Of a DNA stretch of 64,000 nucleotides, positions 36,227 to 62,098 are shown one piece after another. A program made the translations under genes and the position numbers. The notes under the pieces were generated by a model. That model was given only the letters and a program-made list of their open reading frames with translations. It was not told where the DNA came from and ran no database searches. Source of the DNA: Mycobacterium syngnathidarum (GTDB lineage Bacteria > Actinomycetota > Actinomycetes > Mycobacteriales > Mycobacteriaceae); contig NZ_MLCL01000024.1 of the NCBI RefSeq assembly GCF_001942625.1, positions 62,001 through 126,000 on the forward strand, written 5' to 3'. Each line of letters opens with the position of its first letter. Within the stretch, counting starts at the first letter, position 1.

Positions 36227-36402
36227 GGCATTGCCTTTCCGGAGTCGACCAGAGTTGGCACGCTAGCTCATGCGAGCGAGCGCTGTCAGAGACTGGCGCT
36301 CAGATAGCCGGCTCGAATCGAGTAGTCGTCTACGCGTGTGCCCGAACCGTGGCAGGAAAAGACTGGGTGTAGCGATATCCCCACCCACGCGAGGTAGCTG
36401 TC

Positions 36403-38313
36403 ATGTCGATCTTCATGGAGCCTGACCACGGCCGGTTGGTTCGCCGCATCACCGCGATCACCGCAGGCGACCTGACGTCGACTCAGATCAGCAAGGTCGT
36501 CGACGGTGACCTCGATCTGCTCAAGAACCTTCCACAGTCCGGCAAGGACAAGGTCGCCGCCCTGGTCAAACCGCAGGTGCACGGTGAGTTGAGAAAGATC
36601 ATCGGCCCGACGACCGATTTCGTGCCCATCTACTACGTCGAGATGGCCAGGGTATCGGCTCAGGCGGTGGCACGGGTCATCGATGGCAAGCGTCGGCCAC
36701 TCGGTACCGGGGTCATGGTGTCGCCGCGGCTGTTCATGACCAACAATCACGTCATCGCGGATGCGCAGAACGCCGCGTCGACCTCGATCCAGTTCAATTA
36801 CCAACTCGACATCGATGACGTGCCCGCAGCCGTCACGGAGTTTCGACTCGATCCGGCAACCTTCTTTTGGACCAGTGACGAAACCGAACTCGACGTATCG
36901 CTGATCGCCGTCGGATCCCGCACTGCGGGCGCGGGCAAGCTGGCCGAGTTCGGTTGGACCGCACTGTCATCGGCGAAGGACAAGCACGCCGAAGGTGACC
37001 ACGTCACGATCATCGAACACCCCGACGCCGACTACAAGCAGATCGCATTGCGTGAGAACAGGGTCATCGGCCGCGGTAAGAAGGGCATCACCCTCTACTA
37101 CGCCGCAGACACCCTGCATGGCTCCAGCGGCAGCCCGGTGTTCAACGACCAATTCAATCTGGTCGCGCTGCATCACGCCGGTGGCGGCCATAACGACACC
37201 GAGCTCGAAGACGGTAAGCCCGTGCCGGAGGACTGCAATGAGGGCATCAGGATCAGCGCCATCGTCGACGCGCTCCGCGCCCGCCACGACCAATTACCCT
37301 CCAGGTTGAGGGATCTGCTGGCCGAAGCGCTCAATCCGCCGGCTACCGCCACCCCGCCGGCAGGAACGGGCGCGATCAGTGGTGGTGCTGCGGGCACCGG
37401 CCAGCTTGGTGTCCTCGAACGGAATGATGCGCCCAACCCTGACTACGGCAACCGCTCCGGCTACCACCCGGACTTTATGTCCAAAGCCGTTGCAATTCCG
37501 TCTATCCCGACGAACTTGCTGGCGGTGTGTGCGCTCCCGAAGGGGCTCAAACGGTCGTCGGCCAACGTGGTGCTGCGCTACCACCACTTCAGCCTCGTCA
37601 TCCGGGCGGATCGGCGAATGCCGCTGTTCACCATCGTCAACATCGATGGCCGCCGATTGCGGAAAATCAACCGAACGACGGGAGAGGTCGAGGCCGCCGA
37701 AACCTGGTACGCCGACTCGCGCCTGCGGTCCGAACAGCAGCTCGACCAGGACGTATTCGAACGGCAGAAGCCACGCTTGTTCGATCGCGGACATATGGTG
37801 CGCCGCCTCGATCCGGCGTGGGGCAGTCCCGTCGCCGCCAAACGGGCTGCCGACGACACGTTCCACTTCGCCAACTGCTGCCCGCAGATCTCGGCCTTCA
37901 ATCAACACCTCTGGGCCAAGATCGAAAACTACGCCCTCGACAACGCCGACGCCGAGAAGCGCCAGATCACCGTCGTCACCGGGCCGGTATTCGGTGACCG
38001 TGACCCGCTGTACCGGGGAGTCCTTGTGCCACGGCAGTTCTGGAAGATCGTGGTCCGGGTCAGTGCCCAAGACGGCGATCTGCGCGCCACGGCATTCCTG
38101 GCCGATCAGAACGCGGCGCTCGATGCGGCCTTCGGAGCCGACACCGAATCCTTCACCGACATAGACAAAGTGGTGATGTTCCAGAAATCCGTTGCCGACA
38201 TCGAACGGCTCACCGGGCTGTCGTTCGGTGGGTTGCGTGACCACGACACGATGACAGTGGGGCTGGAGGCGGTTTCGCCGCAGCTGGACTCCCTGGACGA
38301 GGCGGCCTGGTGA
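36403..38313 (+). CDS. Trypsin-like protease / EndoG-type nuclease fusion
   Basis: 636 residues, ATG, no signal peptide or membrane segment, so cytosolic. Residues 1-70: helical domain not recognised. 75-290: V8/trypsin-like serine protease with His116 (TNNHVI), Asp164 (ELDVSL) and Ser242 (GSSGSPVF). 300-360: Pro/Gly/Ala-rich linker. 365-620: DNA/RNA non-specific endonuclease with DRGH (His464) and the metal-binding FANCCPQISAFNQ/LWAKIEN (Asn491, Asn500, Glu508). Both active sites are complete. A stand-alone gene without immunity or regulator. The combination suits a stress- or phage-triggered effector; that is inference. Confidence 0.85.
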   Translation: MSIFMEPDHGRLVRRITAITAGDLTSTQISKVVDGDLDLLKNLPQSGKDKVAALVKPQVHGELRKIIGPTTDFVPIYYVEMARVSAQAVARVIDGKRRPLGTGVMVSPRLFMTNNHVIADAQNAASTSIQFNYQLDIDDVPAAVTEFRLDPATFFWTSDETELDVSLIAVGSRTAGAGKLAEFGWTALSSAKDKHAEGDHVTIIEHPDADYKQIALRENRVIGRGKKGITLYYAADTLHGSSGSPVFNDQFNLVALHHAGGGHNDTELEDGKPVPEDCNEGIRISAIVDALRARHDQLPSRLRDLLAEALNPPATATPPAGTGAISGGAAGTGQLGVLERNDAPNPDYGNRSGYHPDFMSKAVAIPSIPTNLLAVCALPKGLKRSSANVVLRYHHFSLVIRADRRMPLFTIVNIDGRRLRKINRTTGEVEAAETWYADSRLRSEQQLDQDVFERQKPRLFDRGHMVRRLDPAWGSPVAAKRAADDTFHFANCCPQISAFNQHLWAKIENYALDNADAEKRQITVVTGPVFGDRDPLYRGVLVPRQFWKIVVRVSAQDGDLRATAFLADQNAALDAAFGADTESFTDIDKVVMFQKSVADIERLTGLSFGGLRDHDTMTVGLEAVSPQLDSLDEAAW

Positions 38314-61777: not shown

Positions 61778-62098
61778 CAGGCCGGGTTTCATCAACGCGG
61801 TAACGGTGGGGGCCTGCTTCTGCCACCGTTGTTGCCGGGGCTGGAATCCAATCAGCGGATGCCTACGCTGATGCGTGCGCGCCGACCGGGCGCATCGACC
61901 GCGTCCGGTTCGGCGCTGCGCCCGGACTCGCCGGGTGCGGACCGAGCGCACGATCAACGCTGACACCGTCGTAGAACCTGGCGGCGTGCCCTAAGCCGTC
62001 GCGTTTCCAAATCGATTGGACTGCAGTGATTACAACGTTGCCCCACGAGCTGCGGCGGACGGCTGTCTGTCTGCGATGGCCGCGCAGAGAGGTGAATC
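61778..62098. other. Intergenic region with a possible terminator
   Basis: 321 bases without a gene. CCGGGCGCA (61887-61895) and TGCGCCCGG (61918-61926) can pair around a 22-base loop and may end the SnoaL-DUF3237 transcript. No copy of the cluster operator is seen before the PucR gene. Nothing else recognised. Confidence 0.4.

Follow-up and report, generated by a model that had tools for sequence, protein, structure and literature searches.

A solitary mycobacterial protease–nuclease fusion gene and the upstream element it shares with dispersed hydrolase genes

Introduction

What use has a bacterium for a single, apparently cytosolic polypeptide that joins a protease to a nuclease, both with their active sites in order, when the gene for it stands alone? 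The question is posed by the frame at 36403..38313 of a 64,000-nucleotide stretch of Mycobacterium syngnathidarum DNA (positions 62,001 to 126,000, forward strand, of contig NZ_MLCL01000024.1, assembly GCF_001942625.1; this whole stretch is termed the window, and all of its features given below by coordinates lie on the + strand). The frame starts with ATG, encodes 636 amino acids (aa) and is recognized, from the list of open reading frames (ORFs), Pfam, alignment and an AlphaFold2 model, as a fusion of a trypsin-like protease with an EndoG(NucA)-type nuclease. A first-pass annotation, made from the sequence alone, had suggested a conflict-type effector and had reasoned that restraint must lie within the protein. 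The latter conclusion is not compelled, since a conserved element of the gene's own stands upstream of it, at 36320..36340, outside the coordinates of that annotation and unreported there. With evenly balanced confidence, the reading favored here is that the protein lies latent inside the cell as an effector of cell death or defense and is induced together with other hydrolases.

An upstream element with company

When the region upstream of the fusion gene is aligned with those of seven relatives, most of it proves to have diverged while two blocks before the start are kept. The first, identified by this alignment and by pattern scans, is a conserved inverted-repeat promoter element, GAGTAG-N4-CTACGCGTGTG, placed 62 bp before the ATG, from which two of the relatives (L002 and L103) depart by one base and Gordonia shows a partial version. 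The second, GGAAAAGACTGG...CGATATCCC at 36355..36381, seen in the alignment of close relatives, is probably core promoter or leader. The window site is exact, where 0.24 matches per 64 kb would be expected by chance at up to 3 mismatches. In six genomes of the fortuitum group there are 34 sites with at most 2 mismatches versus 3 for the reversed pattern, and a refined pattern, TCGNGTAGNNNNCTACKCRTG, gives 65 versus 1 at up to 1 mismatch, a count which is not independent because the pattern was derived from those six genomes. Eight further Mycobacteriales, scanned at the same stringency, yield 45 versus 2 (with one site scored twice, once per strand). Exact sites number 73 in 118 congeneric genomes, distributed over 40 of them, versus 0 for the reversed control; this last count is largely independent of the derivation of the pattern.

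How widely does the element accompany the fusion itself? Ninety-eight homologous loci were taken, 96 of them with a called target (two of the 96 being duplicates), and upstream of the fusion 15 of the 96 score at least 11/13 for the element, with per-locus background frequencies of 0.01–0.15. Six of the 15 belong to the close relatives whose alignment first revealed the element; the rest are from Rhodococcus, Gordonia, diverged mycobacteria and one further actinomycete.

Other candidates for control of the window gene fared less well. A PafBC-like match is present upstream of it and is not conserved in relatives, so that a DNA-damage promoter was rejected; so was a leader RNA with stable structure (z = 0.74). 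No match to a sigma-70 type promoter lies ahead of the window gene. Among the papers listed when the literature was queried with the element strings, none is recognizable from its title or the start of its abstract as dealing with a bacterial regulon, the regulon not having been searched for in other words.

What else stands behind the element? Among 85 distinct sites, 71 have an acceptable downstream frame, and all except one of these frames (70/71) start 20–119 bp downstream of the site's first base. The share taken by the fusion is biased upward since some loci were fetched for holding it. The other genes include, by Pfam, peptidases (subtilases (S8), M43, M12A (astacin) and M4), lipases (Tle1-like and patatin) and two TIR-nSTAND1 proteins (L208 and L221). 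M43, S8 and Tle1-like genes of the kinds found behind the element also adjoin the fusion in other genera. Animal-type heme peroxidases, proteins with LysM and peptidoglycan-binding domains, a DUF2278 protein and a short protein containing a partial Endonuclease_NS domain are likewise encoded downstream of element copies. One subtilase there has a match to Mrr_N, below the Pfam cut-off, and similar genes are present in five of the six fortuitum-group genomes. Two divergent arrangements deserve record in their own right. At L208 a gene for a WD40 protein with an N-terminal hydrophobic stretch diverges from the TIR-nSTAND1 gene and is preceded by a separate copy of the element; in several fortuitum-group genomes (L149, L199, L212, L244, L254 and L261) the genes for the Mrr_N-subtilase and an animal-type heme peroxidase are divergent, each with a copy. 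A gene for a LuxR-type (GerE) protein in Gordonia (L222) is preceded by the element with one mismatch.

The fusion protein

Pfam finds Trypsin_2 at residues 101–256 (E 5.1e-20) and Endonuclease_NS at 380–608 (E 6.4e-45) of the 636-aa product, so the fusion that the first-pass annotation described is borne out. The AlphaFold2 model of the full-length protein (mean pLDDT 84.9, pTM 0.51) has five N-terminal helices (residues 9–67), then the protease, a disordered linker and the nuclease. On the DNA, the N-terminal helical region (residues 1–70, delimited from the model and profile searches) occupies 36403..36612. The V8-class trypsin-like protease (residues 71–300, with His116, Asp164 and Ser242) occupies 36613..37302, and the nuclease (residues 346–620, with His464 of a DRGH motif, Asn491, Asn500 and Glu508) 37438..38262, both assigned from Pfam, alignment and model. 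Between the two enzymes lies a Pro/Gly/Ala linker (residues 301–345, disordered over 314–338 in the model) at 37303..37437. Compared with known folds, the model comes closest to EndoG, Serratia nuclease, Anabaena NucA, Esp, DegS and the serine protease domain of FAM111A, the last being among the best PDB matches for the protease domain. EndoG, NucA and Serratia nuclease on the one side and V8-type serine proteases on the other are the closest solved structures by sequence and fold; whereas those are separate proteins, many of them exported or mitochondrial, here there is one fused protein.

The catalytic residues listed from sequence in the first-pass annotation are indeed intact. An alignment of 45 sequences shows no variation in the protease triad or in Asn491 and Glu508 of the nuclease, and at least 90% conservation of nuclease His464 and Asn500. 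Comparison with seven relatives gives dN/dS values of 0.11–0.35 for the N-terminus, 0.04–0.26 for the protease and 0.09–0.20 for the nuclease, highest versus Gordonia (for the nuclease, 0.09–0.14 versus the six mycobacterial relatives and 0.20 versus Gordonia). The linker gives 0.12–0.41 where computable, dS being saturated in two of the seven relatives; wherever computable across all four regions, dN/dS is at most 0.41. Judged by these ratios, both enzyme domains are under purifying selection.

The helical N-terminus was previously noted as belonging to no recognized family, and that description holds. In the full-length model block pLDDT is 80–88 for residues 1–60 and 58 for 61–70, with the fragment folded separately reaching only 55. 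Residues 1–96 of the window protein have no Pfam match, 18 homologous N-termini gave only single-member Pfam matches, all at E >0.01, and a profile search of the region against the PDB gave nothing convincing (best E 0.27). The suggestion that it might be an effector-associated or Death-like adaptor was therefore rejected, there being no convincing Pfam or PDB profile match. With residues 1–75 as query, all 21 proteins found are the same fusion, and each of 19 short matches of an N-terminal profile aligns to the fusion's N-terminal part, most of them continuing into the protease and then breaking off, like truncated or contig-edge copies. The region, keeping to its own fusion in this way, does not behave as a promiscuous adaptor.

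Might the protease release the nuclease?

The closest solved relatives of the protease include V8, Esp and other glutamyl endopeptidases. Thr237, five residues before the catalytic Ser, and His257, 15 after it, are invariant in 45 of 45 sequences, and we take their spacing to fit that of the Glu-recognizing residues of V8 (Thr190 and His213 in chymotrypsin numbering, lining S1). Is there then a Glu for such an enzyme to find? At position −8 or −9 from the first conserved Tyr of the nuclease, Glu is present in 108 of the 116 homologues with a recognizable linker/nuclease boundary (four of 120 were not matched), and among the 30 positions ahead of that Tyr no other exceeds 14% Glu. Further fusions have the boundary Glu in 43 of 61 scorable cases (two of the 61 being duplicate loci, with 27 more not scorable). 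It is absent from the stand-alone nucleases in four of four scorable cases, one of which has Asp there. These counts are inflated by kinship among the sequences. In the window protein the Glu is residue 339, its codon at 37417..37419, and conservation in homologues makes it a candidate autocleavage site: the hypothesis is that a glutamyl-type protease would cleave after Glu339 and so release the nuclease.

A strand resembling TIPLxIxV occurs in the otherwise variable linker of 71 of the 116 relatives by regular expression (for example P0085, P0088, L091 and L097) and is absent from the window protein and the other 636–639 aa forms. It was considered as a possible shared docking strand and set aside; beyond recognized targets, the strict form occurs in the fetched loci in two other trypsin–NucA fusions and in two unrelated-looking frames.

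Inside or outside the cell?

Both domain families have secreted relatives, and it could be that the fusion serves degradation outside the cell, released on lysis or by a non-Sec route, to attack competitors or yield nutrients. Signal peptides were judged from hydropathy alone, with two secreted proteins of the window, scoring 2.27 and 2.29, as controls. The best 15-residue mean within the first 60 residues of the window protein is 0.61, and none of 120 homologues reaches 1.8 near its N-terminus, in keeping with the earlier remark that a signal peptide is lacking. Among further targets called by script, two of 72 (L047 and L064) exceed 1.8, with stretches possibly ahead of the true start. The element-bearing peptidases, lipases and TIR-STAND proteins tested are similarly without signals (at most 1.45), and the fusion protein is, from sequence, apparently cytosolic.

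The case for export draws on two homologues on Cupriavidus plasmids (L082 and L083), whose genes lie inside a type II secretion gene cluster and whose N-termini have no evident signal peptide, and on some other element-bearing genes that look exported by N-terminal hydropathy or encode LysM or peptidoglycan-binding proteins. Against it, besides the hydropathy values, of the 21 plasmid regions examined (from 125 records with a match) no more than two have the fusion within such a cluster, and an external role is considered unlikely.

Relatives, known and suspected

The architecture is not novel, since three published cases precede it. In the available part of its text, a 2008 serine-protease survey (PMC2605481) includes one Fusobacterium nucleatum sequence with the same combination, Trypsin–Endonuclease_NS, given there without context or tested function. 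The NucA–trypsin fusion is ‘System 3’ of Kaur et al. 2020 (PMC7159879), who, in the portion of the paper available, propose that the nuclease is deployed by a proteolytic cascade. The shared feature is a trypsin-like peptidase and a NucA/Endonuclease_NS domain in one protein. The window protein falls within the domain definition of System 3 (a trypsin-like domain together with a NucA-type one, either fused or encoded in the same operon). System 3 is there described as mostly alphaproteobacterial and often with operon partners (extra trypsins, and in subsets EAD1 or STAND), whereas the window gene is solitary and actinobacterial and its product has an N-terminal domain of its own; at this locus there are no further trypsins, EAD1 or STAND, the neighbors being on the opposite strand and those identified metabolic.

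The third case is LypC of the CARD-NLR-like LypABC system of Caulobacter (PMC13236601), which, as far as the accessible text goes, has a trypsin-like domain, a flexible linker and a C-terminal nuclease, an architecture shared by the window protein, and lies in no defense island. According to the same text the LypC protease is essential for LypABC-mediated lysis, S296A abolishing it, while H471A, N505A and the double mutant leave lysis unaffected, and LypC of Caulobacter endophyticus has no nuclease. Should the protease of the window protein then be regarded as the active effector or a signaling step, with the nuclease accessory or structural? The LypC results point that way. Set against them, the nuclease catalytic residues are 90–100% conserved in the 45 sequences, the nuclease dN/dS values given above speak for purifying selection, and LypC looks like another subfamily by active-site spacing, its Ser-to-His distance being 175 from the residue numbers in PMC13236601 versus 222 in the window protein (163–166 in L098, L100 and L130). 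The protease-centered alternative is accordingly thought improbable, though well short of negligible.

It has also been considered that the window protein is a displaced effector, belonging to a CARD-NLR system whose genes lie elsewhere in the same genome. LypC, in the part of its description available (PMC13236601), is a trypsin–nuclease fusion in just such a system. A Polaromonas plasmid (L096:2598-8311) carries an operon of a protease-ATPase, a large ATPase and a stand-alone NucA nuclease, 39% identical to the window nuclease, that by our own reading of its annotation and sequence may be called CARD-NLR-like. No LypA-like or LypB-like partner adjoins the window gene. With a LypA-like query, only short or weak protease-domain matches were found, in 5 of 47 fusion-carrying genomes, and of 143 loci searched the only one to match LypB was its Polaromonas source, with weak and partial similarity to LypA in 11 others. 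A LypA query against 385 alphaproteobacterial genomes found none at E <= 1e-20, a result that lacks a positive control and is uninformative. The displaced-effector idea is judged highly improbable.

Beyond these systems the family is broad. At E <= 0.001 there are 1,874 homologues among the 7,994 scored candidates (those sharing most words), and all 120 listed have both domains. Loci among the matches listed (best 80, 79 distinct) come from Actinomycetota, Pseudomonadota, Bacillota, Cyanobacteriota, Planctomycetota, Bacteroidota, Chloroflexota, other bacteria and archaea. In a tree of 48 nuclease domains the window protein belongs to a supported set of five (99/94) with two from Mycolicibacterium, one from Gordonia and one further relative, the Polaromonas nuclease falling elsewhere. 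Occurrence is patchy: at E <= 0.001 the genus has matches in 18 of 297 genomes (in five of these, of at least 84% identity), and at E <= 1e-20 the phylum has them in 14 of 396. Two hits of the genus scan, G300 (L115) and G283 (L118), stand apart: in one genome the match is interrupted by a stop codon, and in the other protease and nuclease matches are in separate frames on opposite strands, ~4 kb apart.

Neighborhoods

The window gene is solitary, between opposite-strand genes. Ten nearby genes were scanned (short-chain reductase, phosphomethylpyrimidine-kinase-like, GH6, sulfotransferase, Usp, Rieske oxygenase, glyoxalase-like, DUF1214, TetR and one without family), and the identified coding neighbors are, from these assignments, metabolic. 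Part of the surroundings is shared within the fortuitum group, M. senegalense and M. setense having the ThiD-like gene one gene downstream of the fusion and M. septicum the reductase ~6 kb upstream of it, which makes the host probably a member of Mycolicibacterium within this group. Could the protein simply serve nucleic acid and protein turnover in stressed or stationary cells, without any role in conflict? The metabolic setting, the partly conserved chromosomal position and the presence of the element before housekeeping-looking genes suit such a role; the patchy occurrence just described and the TIR-nSTAND1 and phospholipase-type genes behind the same element do not, and turnover is rated distinctly unlikely.

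For the homologues, a simple gene-calling script finds no same-strand neighbor within 120 bp at 57 of the 96 loci. Where there is company, M43 peptidases are beside the fusion at L025, L078 and L128 (by Pfam) and L069 (by similarity), subtilases at L032 (Pfam), L029 and L030 (similarity), Tle1-like lipases at L008 and L072, a NACHT protein at L017 (with a similar gene at L020) and a TIR protein at L073. Some of the plasmid regions have genes for S1/P1 nuclease, phospholipase D, patatin, CHAT, SIR2, Dpd or pYEATS proteins nearby. Consistent placement in defense islands is not seen, the SIR2, Dpd, pYEATS, CHAT and phospholipase genes lying near some plasmid homologues.

The stop codon of the window gene overlaps, as GTGA at 38310..38313, a GTG that opens a short frame only. 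In Mycobacterium sp. URHD0025 (L001) a DUF4185 gene begins at the same 4-base overlap; there (L001:12046-15436) behind the fusion come the DUF4185 gene, a small one matching YscW weakly, and a peptidase gene of the astacin type that has its own copy of the element (L273). A protein of ~105–123 aa with an HSFEED...VYRP motif is encoded beside the M43 gene next to the fusion at L078:9584-9901, L128:3197-3562 and L069:12981-13352; its L078 copy has no Pfam match.

Weighing the proposal

How might a latent effector of the kind favored here operate? A regulator, probably of LuxR type, would bind the GTAG-N4-CTAC element under stress or infection and induce a dispersed set of intracellular proteases, lipases and the protease–nuclease fusion. 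The protease of the fusion, its S1 pocket resembling that of Glu-specific V8-type enzymes, would become activated and cut after Glu339, and the freed nuclease would degrade nucleic acid, leading to cell lysis or aborted infection. Of the original suggestion of a conflict-type effector, what stands is the analogy with System 3 and LypC, now joined by an element in common with TIR-nSTAND1, lipase and peptidase genes; a consistent defense-island location has not been found.

Several observations pull the other way. A looser, shorter pattern of the element is not enriched by count (75 versus 87 for the control), so that only the stricter patterns carry weight. The element also precedes genes for a flavoprotein, an ABC-2 transporter (by Pfam), secreted-looking proteins without assignment and many small ones likewise, as well as, by eye, a short-chain dehydrogenase/reductase (SDR) and a P450 and, behind a weaker site, a tyrosinase; since these are not hydrolases, the element may act as a general stress box. 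In the six fortuitum-group genomes nothing matches the Gordonia LuxR-type protein at E <= 1e-6, and the matches it has elsewhere lie largely in the helix-turn-helix (HTH) part. Eighteen of the 61 scorable further fusions do without the boundary Glu. Finally, there is the lack of effect on lysis of the nuclease-site mutations in LypC.

More speculative is the extension of the proposal to a whole order, namely that Mycobacteriales have a dispersed self-destruction or immunity regulon in which one palindromic, probably LuxR-bound element would switch on signal-less proteases of several classes, lipases, TIR-nSTAND1 sensors and a self-processing Glu-specific fusion; it is offered tentatively, as something possible about which doubt outweighs belief.

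Perspective

Protease–nuclease fusions have been seen before and little tested, and the one tested relative encountered, LypC, acts within an NLR-type operon as far as the available text of its description goes. With the architecture already known, the interest here is in the solitary, transcriptionally linked form. If solitary fusions are truly tied to other hydrolases and to TIR-STAND proteins by a shared element, then defense or cell-death arsenals could take the form of dispersed regulons. Such regulons would escape searches based on islands, and the element would provide a handle on the regulator, on the inducing signal and on further members.

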